Below, piece by piece: positions 32,887-56,530 of a stretch of 64,000 bases of DNA. The notes under the pieces were generated by a model that was given only the letters and a program-made list of their open reading frames with translations, was not told the DNA's origin and did no database searches. This DNA comes from Betaproteobacteria bacterium (GTDB lineage Bacteria > Pseudomonadota > Gammaproteobacteria > Burkholderiales > Rhodocyclaceae). The position numbers were made by a program, and so were the translations under genes. The stretch's first letter is position 1. Each line of letters begins with the position of its first letter. The DNA lies in NCBI GenBank assembly GCA_016234745.1, contig JACRAR010000064.1, forward strand, positions 62,001 to 126,000, given 5' to 3'.

Positions 32887-33849
32887 ATGGAACAATACGA
32901 TCCCAACGACCTGCTGATCTTTGCCCGCGTGGCCGATGCCGGCAGCTTCAGCCGCGCGGCTGAGCGCATCGGCCTGCCCAAATCCACCGTATCGCGGCGC
33001 ATCTCGATGCTCGAAGAGCGCCTGGGGGAACGCATCATGCTGCGCACGACGCGCCGCCTCAAGTTGACCGAGTTCGGCAATCAACTCCTCGAACACGCGC
33101 GGCAGGTCGCGGCCGAAGTCGACGCCGTGAAGGCGCTCAGCGAGCATCGCCAGATTCGTCCGAGCGGCCGTCTCCGGGTCTCGATGCCGAGCGATTTCGC
33201 GACCCTGCTGTTGACCGACATGCTCTCGGCATTCATCGCGCTGCATCCGGCAGTCTCTCTGGAACTCGATCTCTCGCCGCGGCGCGTCGATCTGCTTGGG
33301 GAGAATTTCGATCTCGCCGTGCGCATGGGCGATCTGCCCGACGACACGCTGCTCGCCGCCCGCCGCATCGCGGTGTTCTCCAACGGCCTGTATGCGGCAC
33401 CGTCCTACCTGGCCGAACGCGGCGATCCCACATCCCCGGACGACCTGCCCCAGCACGAGGCCTTGCGCCTGCTCGGTCGCAATGGCGAGGCCGTGGGCTG
33501 GACCCTGCTCAATGGTGAACGGAAATGGGAGGGCATCCCGCCCGGACGCACCACCGCGAATTCGCCCGAGTTGCTGATCAGCCTGGCGCGCACGGGCAGC
33601 GGAATCGCCGCGGTGCCCGACTATTTCGCCCTGCCCCATGTGCGCCGCGGCGAATTGCGCCGCGTCCTGCCCGACTGGCGCATGCCCGCGCACACGGCGT
33701 GGGCGGTTTTCCCCGGGCGCCGCCTGATGCCGACGAAAACCCGGGCCTTCATCGACATGCTTGAAACAACCCTGGCTGCAACAGACATCAACGCAATGCA
33801 GCCGATATCCGACAAAAAGACACGCTCAAGCAGGCATCCCGACAAATGA
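32887..33849 (+). CDS. LysR-family transcriptional regulator
   Basis: A 320-residue regulator with an N-terminal winged helix-turn-helix (LIFARVADAGSFSRAAERIGLPKSTVSRRISMLEERLG, residues about 8-45) and a substrate-binding effector domain (FDLAVRMGDLPDDTL, GSGIAAVPDYF). It lies divergent to azoR, the likely target, and its end overlaps the start of the CoA-ligase gene by four bases (ATGA), which couples it translationally to the catabolic region. The effector is unknown. Confidence 0.92.
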   Translation: MEQYDPNDLLIFARVADAGSFSRAAERIGLPKSTVSRRISMLEERLGERIMLRTTRRLKLTEFGNQLLEHARQVAAEVDAVKALSEHRQIRPSGRLRVSMPSDFATLLLTDMLSAFIALHPAVSLELDLSPRRVDLLGENFDLAVRMGDLPDDTLLAARRIAVFSNGLYAAPSYLAERGDPTSPDDLPQHEALRLLGRNGEAVGWTLLNGERKWEGIPPGRTTANSPELLISLARTGSGIAAVPDYFALPHVRRGELRRVLPDWRMPAHTAWAVFPGRRLMPTKTRAFIDMLETTLAATDINAMQPISDKKTRSSRHPDK

Positions 33850-36542
33850 GCGTCCACTATCTCGAACACTTGCTGGCGCCTCGCAGCATTGCGGTCATCG
33901 GCGCCAGCGAACGCGCAGGATCGCTCGGCCGCATCGTTTTCGACAATTTGCGTTCCGGCGGCTACGCCGGCAAATTGTTTGCCGTCAATCCGAAATACCA
34001 GAGCCTGGATGGCGTCGCCTGCCACTCCTCGATCGCGGCCATCGGCCAGGTCGTCGACCTCATCCTCGTCACCACACCGGCAGCTACTGTCCCCGCCATC
34101 GTCGACGCCGCCGGCCGCGCCGGGACCCGCAGCGCGGCGATACTCTCGGCGGGCTTCGGCGAAACCGGTCCCGCAGGAAAAGCGATCGAGGAAAAGCTCC
34201 TGGCTGTGGCGAAGAGCCACGGTTTGCGCATCATCGGTCCGAATTGCCTGGGCATCATGCGCCCGTCCCTGCACCTCAACGCCACCATCGCGCGACGCAT
34301 GGCTTTCCCTGGCTCCATCGCCCTGGTCTCGCAATCCGGCGCGGTCGCGGCGGCCCTCATCGACAGCGCGCAGGTCTCGGAATTCGGCTTCTCGAACGTC
34401 ATCTCGATGGGCGCCGGCATCGATCTGGACATCGGCGAGGTCCTGGATTTTCTGACCCATGACCTGGAGACACGCAGCATCCTGATCTACCTTGAGGAGG
34501 TACGCAACGCCCGGCGTTTCGTTTCCGCCTTGCGTGCCGCGGCGCGCGCCAAGCCGGTCATCGTGCTCAAGGCCGGACGGCATCTGCAGACGGGTTCAAA
34601 CAAACTGGACATGAGCGACGACGCGGCTTTCGACGCGGTGTTGCGCCGCTGCGGCGCGGTTCGGGTCAGAACTTACGCCGAACTGTTTTCCGCCGAGCAG
34701 CTCATCGGCGCCGGGCGCCTGCCGCGCGGCAACCGGCTGGCCGTGGTCAGCAACGGCAGCGGCCCCGGCGTCATGGCGGCGGATTACACCAGTGCCGCCG
34801 GCGTGGTCATCGCACACTTGTCGCAGCAGACTTTGGCCGCGCTGGACGCCTGCCTGCCGGCGCACTGGTCGCACAAGAATCCCGTCGACATCCATGGTGA
34901 TGCCACCGCCGAACGATTTGCGGCCGCGCTCGGCCCGGTCCTCAAGGATGAGGGCGTCGATGCAGTGCTGACCTTGTTCTCTCCGCAGCAGGTGCTCACC
35001 GCAGACACAGCGGCGCAAACCATCGTCGATTGCGTCAAACGCTCGGCAAAGCCTGTGCTCACCGCCTGGCTCGGGGAGCGCGATGTGAGCGCCGGCCGCA
35101 GCCTCGCAGCCGAAGCCAAACTACCCGTGTTTCGCTCGCCGGAAAATGCCGTAGCCGCCTTCGGCACGCTCGCGGAATACCGGATGGCGCAGGATCTGCT
35201 GCTTGAAGTACCACCGCCGCTGGCATCGGTCGCCGCACCGGACCTGGCTTTGGCGCAAAGTATCGGCAGCGGGGCCAGCCGCAGCGGCCGCACTCAGCTG
35301 AATGAGGTCGAGGCAGCGCGACTGCTCGGTTGCTTCGGCATTCCCTTCGCCCAAACCGAAATCGGCAACAGTGCCAAAGAGGTGCGCGCCATCGCCAAGA
35401 GGATCGGCTTTCCCGTCGCGATCAAGCTGCTTTCCGGCGACATCGAACACCTCTCCGACGTCAAGGGAGTCTGCCTGGGCATACGCGGCGAAGAGACGCT
35501 GATGCGTGAATATGCGGCACTGATGAAACGCGTGGCCCACTTGCGGCCCGATGCCCGCATCGACGGCGTGACGGTACAACCGATGGTGGAGAAGCGTTAC
35601 GGGCGCCGCCTGAAAATCGGTGTTGCCAACCAGCCCGTCTTCGGCCGCGTCATCAGCTTTGGTGCGGGAGGTGTTCTTTCGGAAGCCATGCAGGACAATG
35701 CGGTCGGCCTGCCACCCCTGAACCGGCGCTTGGCGCAGGACCTCGTCTCGCGCACGCGTGCGTCTCACCTGCTGCTGCCGTATCGCCACATTCCGGAGGC
35801 GGATACCGATGCGATTCTGGAAATTCTGCTGCGGGTGTCCGATCTCGTTTGCGCCCTCCCCTGGGTCATCGAGATTGAAATCAATCCACTGATCGCCGAC
35901 GAGTCGGGATGCATCGCCGTGGATGCACGCATCGTCATCGACCACAAGATTCCCGATCCCGATTCACGCTTCAGCCACCTGGCGATTCATCCCTATCCGG
36001 CGGATCTGGAGAGCCGGGAAGTCCTGCGCGACGGGCAGGAGTTGCACGTCCGGCCAATCCGGCCGGAAGATGCCACACTCGAACTGGCGTTTGCCAATCG
36101 CCTCTCTGAGCGCTCCTATTACATGCGCTTTTTCAGCGCCGGCCGTGGCCTGAGTCCCGTCATGCTGGCGCGGCTGACTCAGGTCGATTACGACCGTGAG
36201 CTCGCGTTGATCGCGCTTGCGCAAGATGACGAAGGAGCAGAATCAATTATCGGCGTTGCTCGCTACTCAGCCGATCCGGACGCGGAGTCCTGCGAGTTTG
36301 CGGTAACCATCGACGATCAATGGAATGGCCGCGGCGTCGCCTCGCTCCTGATGCGGCGGCTGATGCAGGTTGCACGAAATTCCGGATATTCCTGCATGAC
36401 CGGCAGCGTGCTGCCGGAAAACTTCTCCATGCTGAAACTCGCCTCGCATCTGGGTTTTCAGCGCAAGAAGGACCTGGAGGATCCGACCATCGTCAAGGTG
36501 GTGCGCTCCCTGACCGATCCAAGCGATGCTCCACCTCCTTGA
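33846..36542 (+). CDS. ADP-forming acyl-CoA synthetase-like protein with C-terminal GNAT acetyltransferase
   Basis: An 898-residue multidomain protein. Residues about 1-130 are a CoA-binding domain (VIGASERAGSLG). These are followed by succinyl-CoA-synthetase-like domains (GPNCLGIMRP, SQSGAVAAAL, NGSGPGVMAADY) and an ATP-grasp domain (FPVAIKLLSGDIEHLSD, near 540). The C-terminal GNAT domain (about 725-885) includes DDQWNGRGVASLLMRRLM. The same architecture occurs in PatZ/Pat protein acetyltransferases and in bifunctional acetate-CoA ligases, so it could be either a regulatory lysine acetyltransferase or an acid-activating ligase. Coupled to the upstream lysR gene and followed by a transporter. 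Confidence 0.88.
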   Translation: MSVHYLEHLLAPRSIAVIGASERAGSLGRIVFDNLRSGGYAGKLFAVNPKYQSLDGVACHSSIAAIGQVVDLILVTTPAATVPAIVDAAGRAGTRSAAILSAGFGETGPAGKAIEEKLLAVAKSHGLRIIGPNCLGIMRPSLHLNATIARRMAFPGSIALVSQSGAVAAALIDSAQVSEFGFSNVISMGAGIDLDIGEVLDFLTHDLETRSILIYLEEVRNARRFVSALRAAARAKPVIVLKAGRHLQTGSNKLDMSDDAAFDAVLRRCGAVRVRTYAELFSAEQLIGAGRLPRGNRLAVVSNGSGPGVMAADYTSAAGVVIAHLSQQTLAALDACLPAHWSHKNPVDIHGDATAERFAAALGPVLKDEGVDAVLTLFSPQQVLTADTAAQTIVDCVKRSAKPVLTAWLGERDVSAGRSLAAEAKLPVFRSPENAVAAFGTLAEYRMAQDLLLEVPPPLASVAAPDLALAQSIGSGASRSGRTQLNEVEAARLLGCFGIPFAQTEIGNSAKEVRAIAKRIGFPVAIKLLSGDIEHLSDVKGVCLGIRGEETLMREYAALMKRVAHLRPDARIDGVTVQPMVEKRYGRRLKIGVANQPVFGRVISFGAGGVLSEAMQDNAVGLPPLNRRLAQDLVSRTRASHLLLPYRHIPEADTDAILEILLRVSDLVCALPWVIEIEINPLIADESGCIAVDARIVIDHKIPDPDSRFSHLAIHPYPADLESREVLRDGQELHVRPIRPEDATLELAFANRLSERSYYMRFFSAGRGLSPVMLARLTQVDYDRELALIALAQDDEGAESIIGVARYSADPDAESCEFAVTIDDQWNGRGVASLLMRRLMQVARNSGYSCMTGSVLPENFSMLKLASHLGFQRKKDLEDPTIVKVVRSLTDPSDAPPP

Positions 36543-36569: not shown

Positions 36570-37805
36570 ATGAAATCCGCAAGCGCAATCCCGATGCCAT
36601 CTCAAACACCAGATCCGACCGCCTTCAGGGTGCTCGGCGCGATCAGCTTCTCGCATTTCCTCAACGACATGATGCAGTCGCTGATGCTGGCGATCTATCC
36701 GCTTTTCAAAGCCGAGTTCTCCCTGAATTTCGCGCAGATCGGCATGATCACCTTTACCTTCCAGGTTACCGCGTCACTGCTGCAACCCTTCGTCGGCTAT
36801 TACACAGACCGGCATCCGAAACCCTTTTCCCTCGCCTTCGGCATGGGCTGCACCTTCGGCGGTCTGCTCCTGCTTGCCGTTGCGGCCAGTTTTCCCATGG
36901 TGCTTCTTGCCGCAGCCCTGGTCGGCACCGGTTCCGCCATATTTCATCCTGAATCCTCGCGTGTGGCGCGCATGGCCTCGGGCGGCAGACACGGCCTGGC
37001 GCAGTCGATATTCCAGGTCGGCGGCAACACCGGCTCGGCGGCAGGTCCTCTGGTTGCGGCCTGGCTGGTCCTGCCCCAGGGCCAGCGCAGCATCGCCTGG
37101 GTGTCGCTCGCGGCACTGCTGGCGATGATCGTGCTCACTGGGGTCGGGCGCTGGTACCGGCACCAGCATCTGCAGCCGAAACAAGCGCCTCCACGGCATG
37201 CCATACCGCTGCCGCGCCGCCGCGTCGCCTGGACCTTGCTGGTGCTTCTGGCGCTGCTGTTCTCGAAATTTTTCTATCTCGCCGGCATCAACAGTTTCCT
37301 GATCTTTTATCTGATGCAGGAGTATCAGGTCAGCACCCAGATCGCGCAGTATCACCTGTTCTTCTTCCTCGGCGCCGTCGCGCTGGGCACGCTGCTCGGC
37401 GGACCGATCGGCGATCGCATCGGCCGCAAGCAAGTGATTTGGGCGTCCATCCTGGGCATTGCCCCGTTCACGCTGGCCTTGCCTTATGTCGGACTGGAAG
37501 CTACCGCTGTACTGACTGTCATCATCGGCTTCCTGCTGGCCTCCGCCTTTCCGGCTATCGTCGTGTATGGGCAGGAACTGATTCCCGGCAAGGTCGGCAC
37601 CATCTCGGGACTGTTTTTCGGCGTTGCGTTCGGCCTGGCCGGCATTGGCGCCGGCGTGCTCGGACAGCTTGCCGATGCCTGGGGAATCGTTGCGATCTAC
37701 AAGCTCTGCGCGTTTCTGCCACTGCTCGGCCTGCTGGCGGTATTCCTGCCGGATTTGCATGGGTCTGCGCGGGTGTTGCCCGCCTCCGCAGTCACGCACA
37801 AATAG
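36570..37805 (+). CDS. MFS transporter, fosmidomycin-resistance (Fsr) type
   Basis: The 411-residue membrane protein has about 12 hydrophobic segments and the MFS loop motif GYYTDRHPKP between helices 2 and 3, repeated in the second half as GDRIGRKQ. The sequence pattern ISFSHFLNDMMQSLMLAIYPLFK is typical of the Fsr subgroup, with FHPESSRVARMASGGRHGLAQS in helix 4-5. Efflux of a small drug or metabolite is expected, while uptake of the catabolic substrate cannot be excluded given the gene's position before the carboxylase-like cluster. Confidence 0.88.
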   Translation: MKSASAIPMPSQTPDPTAFRVLGAISFSHFLNDMMQSLMLAIYPLFKAEFSLNFAQIGMITFTFQVTASLLQPFVGYYTDRHPKPFSLAFGMGCTFGGLLLLAVAASFPMVLLAAALVGTGSAIFHPESSRVARMASGGRHGLAQSIFQVGGNTGSAAGPLVAAWLVLPQGQRSIAWVSLAALLAMIVLTGVGRWYRHQHLQPKQAPPRHAIPLPRRRVAWTLLVLLALLFSKFFYLAGINSFLIFYLMQEYQVSTQIAQYHLFFFLGAVALGTLLGGPIGDRIGRKQVIWASILGIAPFTLALPYVGLEATAVLTVIIGFLLASAFPAIVVYGQELIPGKVGTISGLFFGVAFGLAGIGAGVLGQLADAWGIVAIYKLCAFLPLLGLLAVFLPDLHGSARVLPASAVTHK

Positions 37806-37926: not shown

Positions 37927-39843
37927 ATGGGAAAGCTAATCAACATCGACAACGGCGGGACGCTCACCGACATTGTTGTGATCGACGGTAACCGGATATT
38001 CCACACCAAGACGCTGACCACGCCCTACGATCTCAGCAAGTGCTTCATCAGCGGCTTGAAGCAGGCGGCTTCGGCCATCTACGGCGAGGAAAACCTGGCG
38101 GCCTTGCTGCAAAGCACCGACCATATCCGCTACTCGACGACGCAAGGCACCAATGCCCTGGTTGAAAAAAAGGGGCCGCGCCTGGGCTTGATTGTCGATG
38201 CCGGCACGAATATCGCATCCCTCAAAGCCACCGGGAAAGAGCGCGAAATGCTGGAGGCGCTGATCGGCTCGCGCATCGCTGAAATCAGGCACGAACTGCA
38301 GGGCGAGGAATACACGCGAGCGCTCGTCGATGCCGTCAACCGGCTCAGCGCCGCCGGGGCGCAGCGCATCGTCGTCAGCTTTTCCGGCGCAGATCACGTC
38401 GACCTGGAACTGCGCTGCATGCGCGAAGTCAACCGGACTTTTCCTCGCCATCTGCTGGGCGCCGTGCCGTTTCTCTATACGGGCTTGCTGACGGAAGATC
38501 GCGAATACGGCCGGCGCACCTGGACTGCAGTGATGAATGCCTTCTTGCATCCGTCGATGGAGCAGTTCCTGTTTTACGCGGAAAACCTGCTGCGTCCCTA
38601 TGGCATGCGCAACCCCCTGCTGATCTATCGCAACGACGGCTATTCGGGCTGCGTGGCCAAGACGACCGCGCTCAAGACCTACAGCTCCGGCCCGCGCGCG
38701 GGCATGGAAAGCAGCCGGGCGATTGCCGCAAGACACGGCCTGCACCGTCTGGTGTCCGTCGATGTGGGCGGCACGACCACCGACCTGGGCCTGGTCGAAA
38801 ATGGTTCGATCCGTAGCCTGCCCTACGGCCACATCGAAGGCGTCGAATGTTCCCTGCCCCTGTGCGACATCGTCAGCATCGGCGTGGCCGGTGGATCGAT
38901 CTTCCGCGTCAAGGAGGGAAAAATTTGCGTCGGGCCGGATTCTGTAGGTGGTGCGCCGGGACCGGCCTGCTTCGGCATGGGCGGACAGCAGGCGACAATT
39001 ACCGATGCCCTGTTGCTGATGGGCCTGATCGATCCGGCGACCTATTTCGGTGGCAGCATGAAACTCGATGCCGAACGCGCCGGCGCGGCCGTGCTGCAGG
39101 ATGTCGCAACACCGCTCGGCCTGACGCTGGCGCAAGCCGTGCATGTCATGCTGGCCGCATGGGCCGAGGAAATTGCCAAAAGCATCAGCGCCTACGTCAA
39201 GGTCGACCAGGATACGGCACTCATGGGATTCGGCGGCGGCGGACCGCTCGCAATCCTGGCGATCGCCGAGGCGGTGAAAGTCGACACGGTCGTCGTTCCG
39301 CGCCTGGCTGCGGTATTCAGCGCATACGGCATCGGTTTCAGCGACATCGGCCACCAGGCCGAAAGCCGCCTTGAAACGACCGACGTGTTGGCAGACTGCA
39401 TCGGCAAACTCATGGATCGCGTCCAGCGCGACATGTTCGCCGAAGGCTTTGAAATCCATGAATGCCGCTTCGAGGGATGGATCACCGCCGGCGCACAGAG
39501 ATACCCAGTCGATCTCGACAAGCCAGCATTGCCGCATGGACTTCCCGCCCGGGAAACGATGACCCTCTCGGTCCGCGCCGTGCGCGTTTTGCCCCACGCG
39601 GCGCTGGACAGAGACGATGCATTGAAAAAAGTTCCGGCTGTCGTCGCCGGAGTCCGCCGTCTGCTCTTGCCGGATGGCAAGACCGCCGAACTGCCCGTCA
39701 TCCGTGTGGAAGACCAGCCGGCCGGTGCGGCGGGTGTCGGCCCCGCCGTGATGGAAGAAGCCTACTGGACCTGCCATGTTCGCGAAAACTGGCGATACGA
39801 ATTTACTGCGAGCGGATGCATCGTCTTCCGCCGTTCAAATTGA
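37927..39843 (+). CDS. Hydantoinase/ketone carboxylase HyuA-type subunit (ApcA-like, about 69 kDa)
   Basis: A 638-residue protein of the HyuA/acetone carboxylase beta family, which activates a substrate with ATP in the ASKHA fold. The N-terminal phosphate motif is altered (DNGGTLTD rather than the usual DIGGTFTD), while the second motif DVGGTTTDLGLV is intact. Its size matches the 70-kDa subunit of the Aromatoleum acetophenone carboxylase core. The start at 37927 has AAGGATG upstream; the open frame to 37624 overlaps the MFS gene and was rejected. It is first in a four-gene set with the small gamma-type, second HyuA-type and HyuB-type genes. Confidence 0.85.
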   Translation: MGKLINIDNGGTLTDIVVIDGNRIFHTKTLTTPYDLSKCFISGLKQAASAIYGEENLAALLQSTDHIRYSTTQGTNALVEKKGPRLGLIVDAGTNIASLKATGKEREMLEALIGSRIAEIRHELQGEEYTRALVDAVNRLSAAGAQRIVVSFSGADHVDLELRCMREVNRTFPRHLLGAVPFLYTGLLTEDREYGRRTWTAVMNAFLHPSMEQFLFYAENLLRPYGMRNPLLIYRNDGYSGCVAKTTALKTYSSGPRAGMESSRAIAARHGLHRLVSVDVGGTTTDLGLVENGSIRSLPYGHIEGVECSLPLCDIVSIGVAGGSIFRVKEGKICVGPDSVGGAPGPACFGMGGQQATITDALLLMGLIDPATYFGGSMKLDAERAGAAVLQDVATPLGLTLAQAVHVMLAAWAEEIAKSISAYVKVDQDTALMGFGGGGPLAILAIAEAVKVDTVVVPRLAAVFSAYGIGFSDIGHQAESRLETTDVLADCIGKLMDRVQRDMFAEGFEIHECRFEGWITAGAQRYPVDLDKPALPHGLPARETMTLSVRAVRVLPHAALDRDDALKKVPAVVAGVRRLLLPDGKTAELPVIRVEDQPAGAAGVGPAVMEEAYWTCHVRENWRYEFTASGCIVFRRSN

Positions 39844-39860
39844 GAAATCAAGGAGTAGCC

Positions 39861-40274
39861 ATGAAAGTCCTGGTGACCGAATACCTGCGCATCAACCTGG
39901 AGACGGAACAATGGGAGTGCCGCTCCTGCAACCACGTGCATGGCTCGGCCCGCGAGAATTACAAGAAGTTCATGCTGATCTACGACCGCGATCCGCGCGA
40001 GATTCATCGCCCCCTGCTCGACCCGGCGCGCTACCAGTTCAACTTCTCGCCAGACCCGAAAGCCTGCGTCATTTACGAGTACTACTGCTCGTCCTGCGGC
40101 ACCCTGGTCGAAGCCGAGTACACGGTGCCGGGCCACGAACCGCTGCATGACATCGAGTTCGACATCGACGCATTGAAGGCGCAGTGGGCAACACGCGAGG
40201 AAATGCGCGAAGGCGGCACCGACACCGCAGGCGTCGTGCCGGCGAAACATGCTTCCTGCGGCCATCCGCATTAA
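39861..40274 (+). CDS. Acetone/acetophenone carboxylase gamma-type small subunit
   Basis: A 137-residue protein related to the acetone carboxylase gamma subunit family. It has two Cys pairs, CRSC (20-23) and YYCSSC, that look like a zinc-binding module, and a His/Cys-rich tail (HASCGHPH). The small subunit of acetophenone carboxylase is about 15 kDa, the size predicted here. It has a strong ribosome-binding site (AAGGAG) and sits 17 bases after the first HyuA-type gene and 15 before the second. This placement separates the cluster from plain HyuAB hydantoinases, which lack such a subunit. Confidence 0.85.
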   Translation: MKVLVTEYLRINLETEQWECRSCNHVHGSARENYKKFMLIYDRDPREIHRPLLDPARYQFNFSPDPKACVIYEYYCSSCGTLVEAEYTVPGHEPLHDIEFDIDALKAQWATREEMREGGTDTAGVVPAKHASCGHPH

Positions 40275-40289
40275 CCGGACAAAACGACC

Positions 40290-42437
40290 ATGAAACGAGT
40301 CGCTGTGGATATCGGCGGTACCTTTACCGACTGCTTTGTCTGCTGGGAAGATGCTTTCCAGCAAACCAAGGCCTTGACGACGCACCAGAACCTCGCTCTG
40401 GGCTTCAACGAGGCGCTCGATGAAGCCTGCACACGCCTCGGCGTGAGCCGCAGACAGTTGCTGTCCGAAGTAGACTCGGTGCGCTACGGCACCACCCTGG
40501 GCACCAATGCGCTCATCGAACGCAAGGGACCGAAGATCGGGCTATTGATCACCCAGGGCTTCCAGAGCACGGTGCCGATCTCGCGCGGACGCGGCTATGC
40601 CGAAGGCATTCCCAAGGACCAGATCAAGGACCTGTCCAGCGCCACCCGCCCGCTGCCGATCGTGCCCATCGACTTGATCCGGCCGGTGCGCGAACGCCTC
40701 GACTACCAGGGCAAGGTGCTGCTGAGAATCGACGAGGAGCATACGCGGCGCCAGATCAGGGAACTGCTCGACACGGGCGTGCAGGCCATCGTGGTCACCC
40801 TGGTCAACGCCGTGGCGAATCCGGCGCATGAACTGAAGGTGCTCGAACTGTTCATGCAGGACTATCCGCCGCACCTGCTCGGCGCCGTGCCGATGCTGCT
40901 CTCGCATCAGGTCTCCGGCCGCAAGGGCGAGTATGTGCGGGCCTCCTCGACGCTGATCGATGCCTATCTGCATTCCACCATGTATTTCGCGATGAGCTCA
41001 CTCGAGCAGAACCTGCGCGACAACGGCTACCTGCTGCCCATGCTGCTGGTGCACAACACCGGCGGCATGGCCCAGATCAACTCGACCGACTCATTGCAGA
41101 CCGTGCATTCCGGCCCTGTCGCCGGCATCCACGCCGCCGAAACGCTCTCCCGGCAATCCCGCATGGGCAACCTGATTTGCGGCGACATGGGCGGCACTTC
41201 GTTCGACATCGGCATCGTGGTTTCCGGTGGCCGGAAATTCTACGATTTCAATCCGGTGGTCGACCGCTGGCTGGTGTCCATCCCCATGGTCCATCTGGTT
41301 TCACTGGGCGCCGGTGGCGGCTCGATCGCCAGGTACGATCCGATCTTCCGCTGTATCCGGGTGGGGCCGGAAAGCGCCGGTTCCGATCCGGGACCGGCCT
41401 GCTATGACCGCGGCGGCATCAACCCGACGGTCACCGATGCCGATTTCATACTCGGCTATCTTGACGGCGAGAATTACGCCAACGGCCAGATCAAACTGAA
41501 CCGGCGCCGGGCGCGCGGCGCCTTCGAGGATATCTGCGATGCCCTGGACCTCGACGAGGTGGGTGCGGCCAAAATGGTGAAGCAATTGACCGACGGCGAC
41601 ATGGCCGCCGGGCTGGTGCGCGAGCTGGGTTCGAAAGGCTACCGCCCCGCCGAGTTTGTTTTCCTGGCATACGGCGGCAACGGCCCCCTGCATGCTTGCG
41701 GCATTGCCGACAAGGCCGGCATCCGCACCGTGCTGGCGCCGCCCTTCAGTTCGGTATTCTCCGCGTGTGGCGGCGCGGCCCTGAACCAGATGCACATCCA
41801 CGAAAAAAATGTCACCTTCGGCTTCTACAACAAATCCCTGGCGAAAATTTTCACCGGCTTCGAAGAGTTCAACGCGGTCGTCGAACAGTTGAAGCAGCGC
41901 GGCCGATTGGATTTGCTGCGCCAGGGCCTGCCCGAAGAAAAGATCCGGCATCGCGTCGAACTGGACATGCGCTATAGCATCCAGAAGATGGAACTGGGCA
42001 TCGTCATCCCGCAAACCCAATTGACCAGCACCACCGATGTCATCGAGATCATCGAACTGTTCAACACCGAATTCGGCAAGCGCTTCGGCGTCGACTCCGT
42101 GTCAACCGAATCCGGCGTATGGGTGACGACCGTGCGCGTCGTATCCTGGGTCGAGCTGCACTCAATCGAGTTCGGCGACATGCACCCGCCCCAGCGGAAA
42201 GTAGCAACGCCTGCGCCCGCGGCCATGCGTTCCTGTCATTTCGTAGGCTACGACAATCCATTCGACACACCGGTCTACGATGACTTGGCGCTGGCGCCCG
42301 GCGTCGCCATCGATGGGCCGGCCATCGTCAACCCTGGAGCGACGACCTTCCTGGTGGAGCCCGGCTGGCGTTACGAATCGGCAGTACAAGGCGCGGTATG
42401 GCTATTCAAGCAAACAGGGCAGGAGAAGCAACGATGA
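40290..42437 (+). CDS. Hydantoinase/ketone carboxylase HyuA-type subunit (ApcD-like, about 78 kDa)
   Basis: A 715-residue ASKHA-fold subunit with intact nucleotide-binding motifs: DIGGTFTD near the N-terminus, RYGTTLGTNALIERKG, DMGGTSFDIGIV, and GAGGGSIARYD. It corresponds to the 75-kDa ATP-binding subunit of acetophenone carboxylase, or the beta subunit of acetone carboxylase. It probably phosphorylates the enol of a ketone substrate or bicarbonate, which is inferred from the family. It overlaps the downstream HyuB-type gene by four bases (ATGA). The paralogue at 37927 lacks the canonical first motif, so this is the better candidate for the ATPase subunit. Confidence 0.87.
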   Translation: MKRVAVDIGGTFTDCFVCWEDAFQQTKALTTHQNLALGFNEALDEACTRLGVSRRQLLSEVDSVRYGTTLGTNALIERKGPKIGLLITQGFQSTVPISRGRGYAEGIPKDQIKDLSSATRPLPIVPIDLIRPVRERLDYQGKVLLRIDEEHTRRQIRELLDTGVQAIVVTLVNAVANPAHELKVLELFMQDYPPHLLGAVPMLLSHQVSGRKGEYVRASSTLIDAYLHSTMYFAMSSLEQNLRDNGYLLPMLLVHNTGGMAQINSTDSLQTVHSGPVAGIHAAETLSRQSRMGNLICGDMGGTSFDIGIVVSGGRKFYDFNPVVDRWLVSIPMVHLVSLGAGGGSIARYDPIFRCIRVGPESAGSDPGPACYDRGGINPTVTDADFILGYLDGENYANGQIKLNRRRARGAFEDICDALDLDEVGAAKMVKQLTDGDMAAGLVRELGSKGYRPAEFVFLAYGGNGPLHACGIADKAGIRTVLAPPFSSVFSACGGAALNQMHIHEKNVTFGFYNKSLAKIFTGFEEFNAVVEQLKQRGRLDLLRQGLPEEKIRHRVELDMRYSIQKMELGIVIPQTQLTSTTDVIEIIELFNTEFGKRFGVDSVSTESGVWVTTVRVVSWVELHSIEFGDMHPPQRKVATPAPAAMRSCHFVGYDNPFDTPVYDDLALAPGVAIDGPAIVNPGATTFLVEPGWRYESAVQGAVWLFKQTGQEKQR

Positions 42438-44692
42438 ACGCAGAGATATTGAGCGCCGCAGGCCATCAGGCCACCGAAAAGGCTTTTCTCAAGGCCAACA
42501 AGGCCTTTCTCGGCCCCGATCCGGAGATCATGCGCGACCATCACCTCGCGCCGCGCAGCGCAAGAGAGGAGAAGATTCTTGCCGCGGTGCAGGATCACGC
42601 CCTGCATGCCGAATTGCGCTTGCAGTTGCAGGCGGCGCTGGATGAAACTTTCGACATCGCCGAGATGACGGTGGCCACACCGGCGGCGCAATGCGGCGAC
42701 ATGTCGACCGCGATCTTCACCGCTTCCGGCGACAGCACGCTGGTGTCCACACGTGGCGTGGCGGGATTCTCGGTCTCCCTGCACTATCCCATCCGCTATA
42801 TCCGCAAGTACTTCGAAAACGACCCGACCGTCGGCGTCCATCCGGGCGACGGTTTCCTCATCAACGATTGCCGCTTCGGCGGCATACACAGCCCCGACCA
42901 GCATCTGTTCATGCCGGTATTCAACGGCAAGGAACTCATCGCCTGGGTCTGCTGCGCCATGCACGAAGGCGAAATCGGTGCGAAAGTCCCCGGTGGCATG
43001 GGGCCCACGATCGAATCGAAATGGGACGAGGGCTTCAAGGGTTCGCCGATCAAACTCGTCGAGAACTACCGGCTCAAAACCGACCTGGTGACGCTGGTGC
43101 AGAACAATTCGCGCGAACCGCAGATCATCCTGGCAGACCTCAAGGCGCGCCTGGCGGCCTGCCGGCGCATCGAACAGCGCATATTCGACGCCCTGCAGCA
43201 ATATGGCGACGACGCCGTGATCGGCTTTTTCCGCGCCAACATCGAATTCGTGCGCGACGAGACCAAGCGGCGCATCCGGGAAATGCCCGACGGCACGGTG
43301 CGCGTGCGTCTGTTTTGCGACGACACCATGCGCGAGCCGGCCTTGATGAATTCGAGCATGGCCTTCACCAAAAAGAATGATCGCATCACCCTCGACCTGC
43401 GCGGCGCGGCACCGCAATTCGCCAACCGCCCCATCAACAGCTTGCGCCAATCGCAGACCGTGACCCTGCTTATCAGCCTGATGCACTACGTCTGGCCCGA
43501 CCTGCCCTCCTGCCAGGCGCTGCTGGAGCAATTCGACATCGAGACCGACCCCGGCTCGTTTGTCGACTGCGACCAGGAAGTTCCCGTGGCACTGTGCATG
43601 CAGCCGATGTTCAAGGTGATCACCGCTGCCGAACTGGCGTTTTCCAAGTTCTACTACGGCATGCCGAAGCGCTATGCCAAGATCAAGGCCGGCTGGTTCA
43701 ACCAGCCGCAGACCATCATCTATGGCGGACTCAACCAGCACATGGATTCGGTCGGCAACATGTGCGGCGACCTCAACGGCATGGCCGGCGGCGCCAAGTG
43801 CGATGCCGACGGAGAACACAGCCTGGCCCCGAATTTCGGCGCCTACACCGATATCGGCGAAGCCGAACACGCCGAAGAAAACCTGCCCTTCATCTATGCC
43901 ATCTCCAAGAAGATCTGGCCGGACAACTGCGGCTTCGGCAAATACCGCGGCGGCAGCGCCTACCAGTATGGCCTGATGCGCTTCGGCACGCAGCCTTTCG
44001 GCTTCCAGACCTTCACCGGGGGTTCTTACTTTCCCTCCACCCAGGGATTGTTCGGCGGCTACGCCTGTCCGGTGTATGCGGTGGCACGCATTCGCGGAAA
44101 AAACCTGCTCGATGAAATGAAAGCCAAGCCCGAGTTATTCCAGGCTTCGATGGAATACCTGATGAACCAGCGTCCGTTCGAGGGTGCGACATACGAAGCG
44201 CTGCCGATGGCGGTGCCGTTCGAGTTCTACGCCGAAGGCGAACTTTTCATGATGAGCCAGGGCGCCGGCGGCGGCTATGGCGATGTTCTCGAGCGCGACC
44301 CGGAACTGGTGATGAAGGACTTGCGCGAAGGCTTGATTTCTCCCGAGACCGCACGCGACCTCTACTGCGTCGCCTATGACGAGGCACTGATGGTGGTGGA
44401 CGCGGCACGTACGGTGGCAAGGCGCCAGGCGCAACGCCAGGCACGCAAGGCGCGCGGCATGAGTTGGGACGAGTTCCACGCGAAGAAGGTCAAGCCGCAG
44501 CCGCCGGACGACATTCTCTATTTCGGCAGCTGGAACAAATCGCCGGAGATTTATGCGGGACCCTACGGCAAGGGGCTGCCGGGGCAACTGCCGCCGATCT
44601 ACATGCCCGACCCCATGGTCGTGGAGAACCAGCGCCTGCAGGCGCGGGTCGCCGAACTGGAAGCGCAGGCCGGCTTGGCTGGCAAGCCCTGA
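42434..44692 (+). CDS. Hydantoinase/ketone carboxylase HyuB-type subunit (about 84 kDa)
   Basis: The 752-residue protein is of the HyuB/acetone carboxylase alpha family. Motifs include MSTAIFTASGDSTLV, HPGDGFLINDCRFGGIHSPD (metal- and substrate-region), AMHEGEIGAKVPGG, and GGSAYQYGLMRF. Its size matches the 87-kDa subunit of the acetophenone carboxylase core. The C-terminal stretch forms a short coiled coil (VENQRLQARVAELEAQ). It is the last gene of the four-gene set and overlaps the preceding gene by four bases, with AGGAG as ribosome-binding site. No gene for the separate 34-kDa epsilon subunit of acetophenone carboxylase follows. Confidence 0.88.
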   Translation: MNAEILSAAGHQATEKAFLKANKAFLGPDPEIMRDHHLAPRSAREEKILAAVQDHALHAELRLQLQAALDETFDIAEMTVATPAAQCGDMSTAIFTASGDSTLVSTRGVAGFSVSLHYPIRYIRKYFENDPTVGVHPGDGFLINDCRFGGIHSPDQHLFMPVFNGKELIAWVCCAMHEGEIGAKVPGGMGPTIESKWDEGFKGSPIKLVENYRLKTDLVTLVQNNSREPQIILADLKARLAACRRIEQRIFDALQQYGDDAVIGFFRANIEFVRDETKRRIREMPDGTVRVRLFCDDTMREPALMNSSMAFTKKNDRITLDLRGAAPQFANRPINSLRQSQTVTLLISLMHYVWPDLPSCQALLEQFDIETDPGSFVDCDQEVPVALCMQPMFKVITAAELAFSKFYYGMPKRYAKIKAGWFNQPQTIIYGGLNQHMDSVGNMCGDLNGMAGGAKCDADGEHSLAPNFGAYTDIGEAEHAEENLPFIYAISKKIWPDNCGFGKYRGGSAYQYGLMRFGTQPFGFQTFTGGSYFPSTQGLFGGYACPVYAVARIRGKNLLDEMKAKPELFQASMEYLMNQRPFEGATYEALPMAVPFEFYAEGELFMMSQGAGGGYGDVLERDPELVMKDLREGLISPETARDLYCVAYDEALMVVDAARTVARRQAQRQARKARGMSWDEFHAKKVKPQPPDDILYFGSWNKSPEIYAGPYGKGLPGQLPPIYMPDPMVVENQRLQARVAELEAQAGLAGKP

Positions 44693-44714: not shown

Positions 44715-45215
44715 ATGACGGAAATTGAAGCGCGCCTGCAACGCCTGGAAGATATCGAGACGCTAAGGCGCATGAAGCATGAAACCTATTGCGGTCTGAT
44801 CGACCGGGGCGTCTGCAAGGGCAAACGCGAGTTGATCCGGCCACTGCTCGACCGTTTCACTGCAGACATCGTCGCCGACTTCACTGGTGTCGGTGTTTTT
44901 CACGGCAGCGACGCGGCCAATTTTTTCATTGAAGCCGTGCCGAACATGCTCAGCTGGTCGCAGCACCGCGTGGGCAATGAGGTCATCGATGTCCAGGGCG
45001 ATACGGCCGACGCGACATGGTCCCTGTTTGTGCCGGCGGTCTCGACCGAACTCGGACCCTTTGGCAAAAAGGGACCGCTGATCCTGATCGGCCGTTACCT
45101 CGAGGATTATGTCCGTCAGAGCGGGATGTGGAAATGGCGCAGGATCCGCGCCGAATTCGATGTCTTCGCCACCGCCGACAAGCTCTGGTCTGAAGCCCTC
45201 TGGTCGGGACAGTAA
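44715..45215 (+). CDS. SnoaL-like (NTF2-fold) protein, possible dehydratase or isomerase
   Basis: The 166-residue cytosolic protein has the SnoaL_4/BaiE-like cone fold pattern: an N-terminal helix LQRLEDIETLRRMKHETY, then DRFTADIVADFTGVGVFHG and alternating strands. Tyr25, Asp30 and His84 fall at positions like those used by scytalone-dehydratase-type enzymes, suggesting acid-base chemistry on a hydroxylated ring or ketone. It lies 22 bases after the HyuB-type gene and is presumably in the same operon. The exact reaction is not known. Confidence 0.7.
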   Translation: MTEIEARLQRLEDIETLRRMKHETYCGLIDRGVCKGKRELIRPLLDRFTADIVADFTGVGVFHGSDAANFFIEAVPNMLSWSQHRVGNEVIDVQGDTADATWSLFVPAVSTELGPFGKKGPLILIGRYLEDYVRQSGMWKWRRIRAEFDVFATADKLWSEALWSGQ

Positions 45216-45260: not shown

Positions 45261-46091
45261 TCAAAGCGTCATGCCGCCGCCGCAGACCAGGGTCTGCCCG
45301 CTGATGTAATCCGATTCCGGGGTGCACAGCAGATACACGGCACCCGCGGCTTCATCCGGCGTGCCGGCGCGGCCGAGCGGGATCGAATGCTCGAACACCT
45401 TGATCAGGTCAGGATTCAGGCCGACCTTGATGGCGCGGTCCTCGATCTTGATTGTCGCGTCACCCGCAGCCGAGGCTTCGGTGAGCCGGGTCATGATGAA
45501 GCCGAAGGCGACACAGTTCACATTGACTTTGAGACGACCCCACTCCTTCGCCAGGGTCATGGTCAGGCCGACGATGCCGGCCTTGGCCGAAGCGTAATTG
45601 ACTTGGCCGATGTTGCCGCCGAGGCCGGCCACCGAGGAAACATTCACTACCTTGCGGAACACCGCACGGCCGGCATCGGCCTCGGCCTTGCTGTAGGCCC
45701 GGATCACCGGCTGGGCGGCGCGCAGAATGCGGAATGGCGCCGTCAGGTGCACATCCATGATAGCCGCCCACTGTTCGTCGCTCATTTTCTGGATGACGTT
45801 GTCCCAAGTGTAGCCGGCATTGTTGATGATGATGTCGAGGCCATGGTAGGTGTCCGTGGCGGTCTTGACGAAACGCTCGGCGAAATCCGGCGCCGTCACG
45901 CTGCCGGCGCAAACGATCGCCTCGCCGCCCGCTTTGCGGATCAATTCGACCACTTCCTGGGCCGGGTCGGCATCGAGATCGTTGACCACCACGCGCGCGC
46001 CTTCGCTCGCCAACTTCAAGGCGATGGCGCGGCCGATGCCACGGCCGGAGCCGGAAACCAGAGCGACCTTGCCTTCGAGTTTGGAACTCAT
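45261..46091 (-). CDS. Short-chain dehydrogenase/reductase (FabG/MFE-2-like)
   Basis: NAD(P)-dependent oxidoreductase of 276 residues. It has the cofactor loop SGSGRGIGRAIA, the NNAG motif (INNAGYTWD), Ser in NVSSVAGLGG, and the catalytic YASAK (Tyr and Lys). Its sequence type resembles both FabG and the N-terminal domain of peroxisomal multifunctional enzyme 2. With the two hot-dog proteins and the thiolase upstream in the same direction, it probably supplies the 3-hydroxyacyl-CoA dehydrogenase step of a beta-oxidation sequence. Confidence 0.9.
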   Translation of the reverse strand: MSSKLEGKVALVSGSGRGIGRAIALKLASEGARVVVNDLDADPAQEVVELIRKAGGEAIVCAGSVTAPDFAERFVKTATDTYHGLDIIINNAGYTWDNVIQKMSDEQWAAIMDVHLTAPFRILRAAQPVIRAYSKAEADAGRAVFRKVVNVSSVAGLGGNIGQVNYASAKAGIVGLTMTLAKEWGRLKVNVNCVAFGFIMTRLTEASAAGDATIKIEDRAIKVGLNPDLIKVFEHSIPLGRAGTPDEAAGAVYLLCTPESDYISGQTLVCGGGMTL

Positions 46092-46113: not shown

Positions 46114-46539
46114 TTAGAAAGCGATCAGGGCTTCGCCCGTGATCTTCACTTCGCCGGATTGATTGACGACCTGGATTTCAAACTTGCCGAGGCGCTCGCC
46201 GTTGCGTTCGCCATCGTGGTCAATTTGTTCGACAATTCTTCCCGAGCAGGTCAGTTCATCGCCCAGGTGCGTGATGCCGGCAAAGCGTGCGCTGAAGCCG
46301 CGCAAGCGTTGCGGCGACACCCAGGTCGTCAGCAGCCGGCCCAGATAGGCCATCGGCAGCATGCCCTGGGCAAACACGTCGTCCATGCCGGCCTTGCGCG
46401 CAAAGTCGATGTCGATGTGGATCGGGTTATGGTCTCCCGAGGCGCCGGCAAACAGCGCCAGGGTGGTCCGGTTGATCGGCGGCAGTTTGAGCTCAGGCAA
46501 AGGCTGATCGGCTTTGACGGATGCGAAATCGATGCCCAT
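46114..46539 (-). CDS. MaoC-family enoyl-CoA hydratase (catalytic hot-dog subunit)
   Basis: A 141-residue single hot-dog protein containing the hydratase-2 motif ASGDHNPIHID, with predicted catalytic Asp36 and His41. It follows the second, non-catalytic-looking hot-dog gene by 10 bases. Pairing of such small proteins into a heterodimeric hydratase is known for HadAB/HadBC and ChsH1/ChsH2, so the two probably form one enzyme. Substrate likely a branched or ring-containing enoyl-CoA; this is inferred from context. Confidence 0.88.
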   Translation of the reverse strand: MGIDFASVKADQPLPELKLPPINRTTLALFAGASGDHNPIHIDIDFARKAGMDDVFAQGMLPMAYLGRLLTTWVSPQRLRGFSARFAGITHLGDELTCSGRIVEQIDHDGERNGERLGKFEIQVVNQSGEVKITGEALIAF

Positions 46540-46549
46540 GTCTTCCGCC

Positions 46550-46993
46550 TCAGCGATTGCGTTGCACGATCACGCTGCGCAGATCGGCAACGTGACTGCC
46601 CGTTTGATCGGTGACGCGCGTCTCCTTGACGATGAAGTCGAGGGCGCCATTTTTCTTGTCGTAAACATCGACGATGCGCGACGCGAAGGTCAGGACATCG
46701 CCGGCGCAAGCCTGCATGTAATAGGTGAAGGATTGTTCGCCATGCAGTACCTTGGGTAGATCCAGTCCCACTTCGTAGAACCAGGCCAGCGGATCGGGCC
46801 GGTCTATTTCCATGGTGAACAGAAAAGTGGGCGGCAGCGGCAGCGAGCGGTAGCCAGCTGCTCTTGCCGCGACCTCATCCACGAAGATCGGATCGGTTTC
46901 CCCGATCGCCTTGGCGAAGAAACGCAAGCGGCCCTTCTCGGCCGCCACCGCGTACGGCGGGAAGGTCTTCCCGATCAGGGCCTTGTCTATCAT
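46550..46993 (-). CDS. MaoC-like N-terminal-type hot-dog protein (hydratase partner subunit)
   Basis: The 147-residue product fits the FAS1-like dehydratase/MaoC_dehydrat_N family. It has AIGETDPIFVD at the place where catalytic hydratases carry the D..H pair, but lacks the His. It also has LPPTFLF and VLHGEQSFTYYM. It therefore most likely provides the substrate-binding half of a heterodimer with the product of 46114-46539. It lies 22 bases after the thiolase gene. Confidence 0.85.
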   Translation of the reverse strand: MIDKALIGKTFPPYAVAAEKGRLRFFAKAIGETDPIFVDEVAARAAGYRSLPLPPTFLFTMEIDRPDPLAWFYEVGLDLPKVLHGEQSFTYYMQACAGDVLTFASRIVDVYDKKNGALDFIVKETRVTDQTGSHVADLRSVIVQRNR

Positions 46994-47015: not shown

Positions 47016-48197
47016 TTACTTGCGGTAGAGCGTCACGACGCAAGCGCCGCCCAGTCCCAGGTTGTGCTGCAGGGCGATCTTGGCGTTGGCCACCTGGCGC
47101 TGCTCGGCTGTGCCGCGCAACTGATGGGTCAGTTCATAGCACTGGGCGAGGCCCGTCGCGCCGAGGGGATGTCCCTTGGAAAGCAGGCCGCCGGAAGGAT
47201 TGGTGACGACCTTGCCGCCATAGGTATTGTCGCCGTCATCGACGAATTTCTCGGCGCCGCCCTCCGGGCAAAGTCCGAGGGCCTCGTAAGTGATGAGCTC
47301 ATTCTGGGCGAAGCAGTCATGCAACTCGACCACATTCACATCATTGGGGCCGATCCCGGCCTGACGATAGACTTGCTGGGCGGCCTCCCTGGCCATATCG
47401 TAACCGACGACGCGGATCATGTCGTGGGATTCGAAAGTGCTGGGATAGTCGGTGGTCATGGCTTGCGCATCGATGTAGACATCGTGGCGCAGACCATGCT
47501 TCTTGGCGAAATCTTCGGACATCAGCACCGCGGCAGCGGCACCGCAAGTCGGTGGGCAGGCCATCAAGCGCGTCATGACGCCGGCCCACAGGGGCGGAGC
47601 ATCCATCACTTCCTGGGTCGTAACGACTTTCTTGAACAGCGCCAGGGGATTCTTCTCCGCATGGCGGCTGGCCTTGGCGCGAATCTTCGCGAAGGTTTCC
47701 AGCTTGGTGCCGTATTTCTTCATGTGGGCGAGTCCGGCACCGCCGAAATAGCGCAGCGCCAACGGCACTTCCGTCATGCCGACGAGCGCGTCGGTTTCGC
47801 GGTCGAAATCGTCAAAGGGAGTCGGTCGGTCCTTGAACATGGCACCCAGCGCACCCGGATTCATCTGCTCGAAGCCGAGTGCCAGGACACAATCGGCGGC
47901 ACCGCTGGCGACAGCCTGGCGCGCAAGAAACAGCGCCGTCGAACCGGTCGAGCAATTGTTATTGACGTTCACGACGGGAATGCCGGTCATGCCAAGCTGG
48001 TAGACCGCCTTTTGTCCCGACGTCGAATCGCCATAGACATAACCGACGAAGGCCTGCTGAATCTCCTCGTACTTGATCCCGGCGTCGGCCAGGGCCAGGC
48101 GGCCGGCGGCGGCGCCCATCTCGTGATAGGGGGCGCTGGCGCCCGGCTTGGCGAACGGGATCATCCCGACACCGGATACAAATGCTTTACGCATCAT
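47016..48197 (-). CDS. SCPx/lipid-transfer-type thiolase
   Basis: A 393-residue thiolase-superfamily protein. The nucleophilic Cys is in NNNCSTGSTAL, and the downstream His motifs are HDCFAQNE and SKGHPLGATG. The C-terminal CxGGG cysteine of ordinary thiolases is replaced by the GLGGACVV pattern, as in SCPx thiolases and Ltp-type enzymes. No DUF35 partner gene is present, so an Ltp2-style aldolase is less likely than a thiolase. It is first of four minus-strand genes behind an apparent TetR-controlled promoter. Start 48197, GGAG seven bases upstream. Confidence 0.88.
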   Translation of the reverse strand: MMRKAFVSGVGMIPFAKPGASAPYHEMGAAAGRLALADAGIKYEEIQQAFVGYVYGDSTSGQKAVYQLGMTGIPVVNVNNNCSTGSTALFLARQAVASGAADCVLALGFEQMNPGALGAMFKDRPTPFDDFDRETDALVGMTEVPLALRYFGGAGLAHMKKYGTKLETFAKIRAKASRHAEKNPLALFKKVVTTQEVMDAPPLWAGVMTRLMACPPTCGAAAAVLMSEDFAKKHGLRHDVYIDAQAMTTDYPSTFESHDMIRVVGYDMAREAAQQVYRQAGIGPNDVNVVELHDCFAQNELITYEALGLCPEGGAEKFVDDGDNTYGGKVVTNPSGGLLSKGHPLGATGLAQCYELTHQLRGTAEQRQVANAKIALQHNLGLGGACVVTLYRK

Positions 48198-55276: not shown

Positions 55277-56530
55277 TCAGTTAGTTCTTGTATCGCGCCA
55301 GTGCTTACGCAAATTAGCCGCCAAAGCCGGCGAAAAATGGCAGAAAGCTTGCTCGCGTGCATATAGCGCCATGTAACGCCGAAATAGATCGAGCGGTTCC
55401 TGCGCAAGACGAAAAGCACGACGATTTGCAGTGAAGCTGACCACGCCCGAGGAAGTCATTTGCAGCACCAGATCCTGTACTGCAGCTTCGATCTGCTCCG
55501 GTGCGACCACCTGGTCGCAAATCATGCGCCCTTCAGTTGAATCGCAAGCTATGCGCCGATCGGCCAGCACCATTTGGCGCGCCAAACGGTCACCCACAAA
55601 ACGCTGCAGGCGCAAATTGGCTGCACCCGGGATGATGCCTTCCTTGCGCGCCGGCAAGCTCATGTAAGCGTCGGTGCCCGCGACGATGCTGTCCATCACC
55701 AGCAGGTATTGACAACCGCCACCGATGGCAAATTTATCCAGCTGGGCGATCCAGGGTTTTTCCTGCGTTTCCTCAAATGCTTCTGGAACAATTTTAGGCT
55801 GCGCCAGACCGCGGTAGATCTTGTTCAACACACCCAGTTCACGCTGCAGATACCACATCGGGGGAATCTTGCCTTCTTGCAAACGGGTAAGATTGATGCC
55901 GCTGCAAAACGCGCGCTGACCGCCATATTTGGCAACGGGCGCGCCGCGCAAAACCACTACTTCCGAATGCGGGTCGAGCAAGGCCAGGTCGACCGCCGTC
56001 TCCACATCATCCAGGCTGCGTTCATCCTCGGCGTTGAGTACGTCTGGGCAGTTCAGTGTGAGGAAGCAGGTCTTACCAATGCGCTCCAGGCTCGCTGCTG
56101 CAAGAACCAAATTGCCGCCGTTGGAAAATTCGTCGAGCCGTTTCACGGAATCAGCACGTGGCAAACGCATGGCCTGGCACAGGTGCTCCCCGCTCGTCCG
56201 GTGATTCAAGACATGGGCCAGAAACAACATCTGGTCGATGGCCACACCGGTTTGGTCGGCCAGGGGCAACCGTGCTTCTTGCTCCAACTCGGTACTGTTG
56301 GGAATCAAGCCTTCAATTAAGTCACTTGCGGCAGCAACCAGCTTGTCGAGCCGCAGAAACTGCGCATAGTTGCCTGTGAGCCGCGAGTACACGACGTCGA
56401 TATGGGCTGCGAGAAATGTCTCCCGTGCCTCGCGCGCGGCCATTACCGACTCTTGCCTGACATGCACTGTCAGGGTTCGAGCATCTTCAGGGAAATCGCC
56501 CCTGACTGAATAATTGTTGTGTACATTCAT
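55277..56530 (-). CDS. DpgC-like crotonase-superfamily protein
   Basis: The 417-residue product is longer than ordinary crotonases. About 150 N-terminal helical residues precede a crotonase core with AFCSGINLTRLQEGKIP, LDKFAIGGGCQYLLVMD and EGIIPGAANLRLQRFVGDR. The organisation and these segments strongly resemble DpgC, the cofactor-free (3,5-dihydroxyphenyl)acetyl-CoA 1,2-dioxygenase of glycopeptide antibiotic producers. No DpgA, B or D partner is nearby, so the substrate may be another arylacetyl-CoA. Whether it uses O2 cannot be told from the sequence. It is followed by no co-directional gene. Confidence 0.8.
   Translation of the reverse strand: MNVHNNYSVRGDFPEDARTLTVHVRQESVMAAREARETFLAAHIDVVYSRLTGNYAQFLRLDKLVAAASDLIEGLIPNSTELEQEARLPLADQTGVAIDQMLFLAHVLNHRTSGEHLCQAMRLPRADSVKRLDEFSNGGNLVLAAASLERIGKTCFLTLNCPDVLNAEDERSLDDVETAVDLALLDPHSEVVVLRGAPVAKYGGQRAFCSGINLTRLQEGKIPPMWYLQRELGVLNKIYRGLAQPKIVPEAFEETQEKPWIAQLDKFAIGGGCQYLLVMDSIVAGTDAYMSLPARKEGIIPGAANLRLQRFVGDRLARQMVLADRRIACDSTEGRMICDQVVAPEQIEAAVQDLVLQMTSSGVVSFTANRRAFRLAQEPLDLFRRYMALYAREQAFCHFSPALAANLRKHWRDTRTN

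Follow-up and report, generated by a model that had tools for sequence, protein, structure and literature searches.

A predicted four-subunit ketone carboxylase of a separate clade in a Rhodocyclaceae genome

We analyzed a 64,000-nucleotide stretch of DNA (the window; positions 62,001 to 126,000 of contig JACRAR010000064.1, assembly GCA_016234745.1) from a Betaproteobacteria bacterium of the Rhodocyclaceae, in which four genes at 37927–44692 on the plus strand form a compact cluster. Judged by its sequence, this cluster is a real, intact gene set of the acetophenone carboxylase (Apc) type from a so far uncharacterised clade, and the predicted product is a ketone carboxylase. We give a probability of about 0.72 to the following reading: the cluster encodes the core of a ketone carboxylase that needs ATP but no biotin, belongs to a separate clade, here termed clade W, and acts on a ketone other than acetophenone or acetone, its product being thiolysed by the route described below.

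The genes encode an ApcA-like HyuA chain, alpha′ (37927–39843; 638 residues, 68.6 kDa; predicted bicarbonate kinase), an ApcB-like gamma subunit (39861–40274; 137 residues, 15.8 kDa), an ApcC-like HyuA chain, alpha (40290–42437; 715 residues, 78.3 kDa; predicted ketone kinase), and an ApcD-like HyuB chain, beta (42434–44692; 752 residues, 83.5 kDa). The computed masses agree with the 69, 15, 78 and 84 kDa given in the initial annotation of the region. The genes are separated by 17 bases (alpha′/gamma) and 15 bases (gamma/alpha) and overlap by 4 bases (alpha/beta); the four frames contain 0 internal stops, and the cluster shows no sign of decay. The Pfam families Hydant_A_N with Hydantoinase_A, Acetone_carb_G and Hydantoinase_B are all matched well over cut-off. 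The order alpha′-gamma-alpha-beta is that of apcABCD, a mark of Apc-like systems; two genes are typical of hydantoinases and three of acetone carboxylases (PMC5214803). Of about 40 related loci whose alpha chain is at least 35% identical, nearly all keep this order; one exception is locus L060, where the alpha′ match lies downstream. Given the subunit scores and this synteny, a chance origin of the four-gene set is excluded.

For each of the four subunits, the best PDB match in phmmer searches is the corresponding chain of Apc (5L9W) rather than acetone carboxylase (Acx): 256 vs 112 bits for alpha′ (5L9W alpha chain), 88 vs 34 bits for gamma (beta chain; Acx gamma), 484 vs 288 bits for alpha (gamma chain) and 264 vs 118 bits for beta (delta chain). 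The gamma subunit scores 116.6 bits against PF08882. The scores against the NCBIfam equivalog models of ApcA–D are 300 bits with a cut-off of 1250 (alpha′, NF042960), 111 with 250, 504 with 1500 and 294 with 1500, that is, 20–45% of the cut-offs. The four-subunit set on another contig of the same genome, C74, reaches 1240, 245, 1486 and 1391 bits with the same models, itself just below the cut-offs. The initial description of the cluster as matching the Apc core overstated the resemblance, as all four subunits fall far below the Apc equivalog cut-offs.

A maximum-likelihood tree was built for the alpha chain (36 rows), and the other subunits were placed by their scores. In this tree, the window alpha lies within the four-subunit branch shared with Apc (support 100/99), where it belongs to clade W (19 rows, support 100/99), apart from Apc itself. 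The alpha chain of C74 groups with true Apc (5L9W) and is 34% identical to the window alpha, and the chain of C56, also from the same genome, groups with acetone carboxylase. The nearest relatives of the window within clade W, on long branches, are the alpha of contig C64 from the same genome and that of Thalassovita litoralis. Plain Apc orthology is ruled out by the equivalog scores and the tree, and by the fact that the genome encodes a true Apc elsewhere. A three-subunit acetone carboxylase with subunits A-B-C and one HyuA is ruled out by the two HyuA chains and the tree; this upholds the initial assignment to an Apc-type core, which the per-subunit scores also favor.

The HyuA and HyuB domains, and the public annotation of the relatives as hydantoinase or oxoprolinase, could suggest an ATP-dependent hydantoinase, oxoprolinase or lactamase. 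However, the window has both gamma and alpha′, which hydantoinases lack (PMC5214803), and neither the scores nor the tree allow it to be grouped with CapA or N-methylhydantoinase, making such an activity extremely improbable. A hydantoinase or oxoprolinase of HyuA and HyuB only is ruled out by the gamma and alpha′ chains and by the tree. The phylogenetic check proposed at the outset, carried out on alpha, did not place the cluster among hydantoinases. Two HyuA chains, a four-cysteine gamma and a HyuB are present, and alpha stands apart from both Acx and hydantoinases.

The ATP-site (ASKHA) motifs are kept in both HyuA chains; in alpha′, the phosphate and adenosine motifs are IDNGGTLTD, VDVGGTTTD and GPDSVGGAPGPACFG. 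RERLDYQG at residue 134 of alpha is the fingerprint of the beta-contacting alpha chain, and the RER(I)DxxG motif is absent from alpha′. The four-cysteine zinc site of gamma (C20, C23, C76 and C79) is invariant in the alignment. In beta, D89, H152, D155 and H177 align with the Apc beta metal-site residues D65, H123, D126 and H148, and the last three also align with His150, Asp153 and His175, the Mn ligands of acetone carboxylase (PMC5543143).

By analogy with Apc and acetone carboxylase, alpha would phosphorylate the enol form of the ketone, and alpha′ would act as a bicarbonate kinase that makes carboxyphosphate. The phospho-enol and carboxyphosphate would then be joined to a beta-keto acid, for which the conserved metal site of beta is the probable place. 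This joining is the weakest step of the scheme, because a structural role of the metal is favored for Apc by the authors of its structure (PMC5214803). The beta-keto acid would be converted to its coenzyme A (CoA) thioester by an enzyme encoded outside the cluster or yet to be recognised, and the adjacent SCP2-type thiolase would cleave the thioester to an acyl-CoA and acetyl-CoA.

The residues proposed to line the ketone pocket of Apc are L81, F281, N282, P285, I333, Q344 and T345. At these positions, the window alpha carries T, V, H, P, V, H and L, only one of the seven being equal. Nearly all of the clade W rows compared share the pattern T, V/I/L, H, P, V/I, H, L; L049 departs from it, with Y in place of the second H.

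This pocket bears on the possibility that the cluster encodes a second acetophenone carboxylase, or one for ring-substituted acetophenones. The subunit set and order are the same as in Apc, and the organism is seemingly equipped for ethylbenzene: the alpha subunit of ethylbenzene dehydrogenase, EbdA (L143, C43:82547-85405), scores 2048 bits, over the equivalog cut-off, and the source organism probably degrades ethylbenzene anaerobically. Yet a bona fide Apc set, with ApcE (which scores 391 bits against the ApcE model and 320 bits against 9FOU) and a PaaK-type CoA ligase, is encoded at C74, to whose alpha chain the window alpha is 34% identical; the pocket is changed, the clade is separate and no Bal-type ligase is adjacent. 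A second acetophenone carboxylase is therefore improbable, and the substrate is probably not acetophenone, which C74 and the ethylbenzene dehydrogenase already serve. The earlier suggestion that neighbors unlike those of the acetophenone pathway make another ketone plausible is strengthened by the true Apc locus with its ApcE and ligase, the ethylbenzene dehydrogenase and the altered pocket.

A four-subunit isozyme of acetone (or butanone) carboxylase is the more serious alternative, though unlikely. In Helicobacter cynogastricus, H. salomonis and H. suis (L044, L045, L046), thiolase and 3-oxoacid CoA-transferase genes adjoin the four clade W subunits, the families having been confirmed for H. 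cynogastricus as acetyl-CoA acetyltransferase and 3-oxoacid CoA-transferase A/B; for H. pylori, the three-subunit acxABC has been described (PMC2244623). CoA-transferase A/B genes likewise adjoin the cluster of Neorhizobium petrolearium, and the pocket positions are nearly constant across clade W. The 3-oxoacid CoA-transferase genes beside several relatives point to acetone, so a four-subunit enzyme of this type need not act on an aromatic ketone. On the other side, CoA-transferase genes were not found near the window cluster, whose thiolase is of the SCP2 type rather than the acetyl-CoA acetyltransferase type, and which sits with C64 and Thalassovita on a long divergent branch; moreover, a set of the acetone carboxylase type is already encoded at C56, and two contig ends of this genome carry gamma ends of the Acx type. 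Because of the C56 set and the lack of an adjacent CoA-transferase, the substrate is probably not acetone. Our guess, based on the SCP2-type thiolase and the absence of CoA-transferase genes from the window, is that a larger or alicyclic ketone is favored.

The thiolase (47016–48197, minus strand, 393 residues), a predicted beta-ketoacyl-CoA thiolase of the SCP2/lipid-transfer type, scores 696 bits against NF006102 (cut-off 436). Its identity to thiolases beside four-subunit clusters is 74% in Thalassovita (L029), 65% in a Cytophagaceae metagenome-assembled genome (L028), 60% in a Sphingopyxis metagenome-assembled genome (L036) and 53% in Prauserella (L054), the first three loci belonging to clade W and the last to a sister row. 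These comparisons make it the best-supported candidate for a pathway partner of the cluster.

Several points weigh against our reading of the cluster as a clade W carboxylase for a further ketone. The pocket residues near the reacting carbonyl are insufficient to fix the substrate. No AMP-type CoA ligase is adjacent to the window cluster, whereas one is present beside Apc and the sibling clusters. The thiolase and the reductase and hydratase genes next to it lie on the opposite strand, so they could belong to a different route of beta-oxidation. The beta subunit, at 752 residues, is longer than Apc beta, and the supply of a fifth subunit in trans, discussed next, is hypothetical. In the literature, we found neither biochemical data for any clade W enzyme nor a four-subunit carboxylase characterised as acting on aliphatic, terpenoid or steroid ketones.

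Apc has a fifth subunit, epsilon, and neither ApcE (NF042977) nor a clade-specific epsilon-like family was found in the window. The epsilon subunit has been termed elusive, with close orthologues in only two other gene clusters, and not every Apc-like operon has the gene (PMC5214803). In roughly two thirds of clade W loci, beta is followed, usually directly, by a gene for a conserved protein of about 280 residues with no Pfam family (L022:144-980, minus strand; L019:10968-11804, plus strand; and many relatives besides); the members RHA1_RS41475 and QEO92_RS28970 were confirmed and are hypothetical proteins in public records. A confident AlphaFold model from 17 sequences (pLDDT 92.3, pTM 0.90) was compared with 350,542 PDB chains: the first three matches were to ApcE (9FOU; E 9.4e-8 to 3e-7, TM 0.57–0.64), followed by uroporphyrinogen decarboxylases. 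The solved ApcE served in this fold search in place of an ApcE model from four sequences, which was not used (pLDDT 44.7). Profile comparison of the epsilon-like and ApcE-like families gave E 4.7e-5 and a probability of 68%; the values for a control without relationship were 0.23 and 0.3%. From the modeled fold and the profiles, we infer that the family is the epsilon subunit of clade W, which is a more general result than the window cluster itself.

The epsilon-like gene is absent at the window cluster and at C64, and the same genome has two copies, at C6 and C59, beside sibling clusters. It also has ApcE at C74 and a weak ApcE-like match (36 bits) between gamma and alpha of C23 (C23:61094-61690, L138). 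The initial remark that epsilon is absent thus holds for the window cluster; the lack of an adjacent gene is not special, as some Apc-like operons also have none (PMC5214803) and an epsilon-like gene had gone unrecognised in most relatives. Six other genomes had no epsilon-like gene in the fetched stretch, and in five of them one is encoded elsewhere or shortly past its end; in Solimonas, it is possibly adjacent, as the fetched stretch ends early. The window core may be supplied with epsilon in trans from C6 or C59. A broader view would make clade W a cryptic five-subunit ketone carboxylase family with the 280-residue protein as the fifth subunit, an acetone role in some lineages such as gastric Helicobacter, and novel ketones as substrates of window-like members that take epsilon from paralogous loci; we hold this only tentatively, at slightly less than even odds.

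The genome contains eight gamma genes, not counting a weak match and two fragments at contig ends. Six of the eight belong to four-subunit sets (C40, which is the window contig, C6, C23, C59, C64 and C74); of the other two, one is of the acetone carboxylase type (C56) and one is fused to beta (C8). In the C8 fusion, HyuB and a gamma domain share one 806-residue frame (L025:9037-11457), with a single HyuA upstream. The ends of C64 (L016:1-141) and C6 (end of L017) are identical over 141 bases and resemble the end of an acetone-carboxylase-type gamma; they probably represent collapsed duplicate clusters. Among 399 genomes drawn from the phylum, gamma was found in nine, including the source genome, the other eight having one or two each. 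Three genomes of the same genus lack a close homologue of the window beta, so the window set was probably acquired or is lineage-specific.

Around the cluster, a SnoaL_4-domain protein (44715–45215, plus strand, 166 residues; PF13577, 60 bits) occupies the position usual for the epsilon-like gene in relatives. Its relatives were not found among the fetched loci of other genomes, and as a substitute for epsilon it was rejected, with no evidence and no relatives beside other clusters. Possible partners are an SDR oxidoreductase resembling 3-ketoacyl reductases (45261–46091, minus strand; 206 bits with FabG-type models, below cut-off) and two MaoC-type hydratases (46114–46539 and 46550–46993, minus strand; PF01575, PF13452). 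A MalT-like LuxR protein (48986–51712, plus strand, 908 residues; NF003420, 264 bits) is a candidate regulator; regulators 24–28% identical to it lie beside clade W clusters in L029, L031, L036, L040 and L041. Upstream and co-directional, with a 121-base gap to alpha′, a possible uptake protein of the MFS transporters (36570–37805, plus strand) was assigned to its family by reading the sequence, with no NCBIfam match. The preceding gene (33846–36542, plus strand, 898 residues) encodes an ADP-forming acyl-CoA-synthetase-like protein (NF045493, 434 bits; cut-off 1300) with a GNAT domain at residues 727–886 (NF058543, 71 bits), perhaps a Pat-type regulator (protein acetyltransferase) rather than a ligase. 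Farther away, a relative of the DpgC-like (3,5-dihydroxyphenyl)acetyl-CoA dioxygenase is encoded at 55277–56530 on the minus strand (392 bits vs a cut-off of 530).

In vitro work covers few ketone carboxylases so far. With about eight of these systems, the source genome provides a natural series for comparing substrates. Because the sister clade is widespread and has a conserved epsilon-like protein, what epsilon does can be examined in many bacteria that are in culture. For clade W, annotation as hydantoinase or acetophenone carboxylase is not to be trusted.

Compared with known systems, the window set shares the HyuA/HyuB fold with hydantoinase and caprolactamase (7HK5, 6YRA), which have no gamma or alpha′ and lie outside the ketone carboxylase branch. 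With AcxABC (5SVB, 5M45), it shares the HyuA/HyuB/gamma core and the His-Asp-His metal site, whereas Acx has one HyuA chain, the order A-B-C and a deep separate branch, and the window scores against it are much lower. Apc of Aromatoleum aromaticum (ApcABCDE; 5L9W, 9FOU) is closer, with the same subunit set and order, ASKHA motifs, RER(I/L)DxxG in alpha, four-cysteine gamma, beta metal residues and tree branch. The window differs from it in its clade, low equivalog scores, six changed pocket residues, longer beta and other neighbors, with no adjacent epsilon or benzoylacetate-CoA ligase. Many clade W clusters have a CoA-transferase, a sigma-54 regulator or a CobW GTPase (for example, L033:15341-16651 and L135:17047-18255), the latter a possible metal-delivery partner of the carboxylase, and most have an epsilon-like gene after beta; the window has none of these. 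Clade W clusters such as those of Rhodococcus jostii RHA1 (pRHL2, RHA1_RS41495-41475), Neorhizobium petrolearium, Thalassovita litoralis, Panacagrimonas perspica and Helicobacter suis otherwise resemble it, with four genes in the window order, alpha chains 52–59% identical and a nearly equal pocket.

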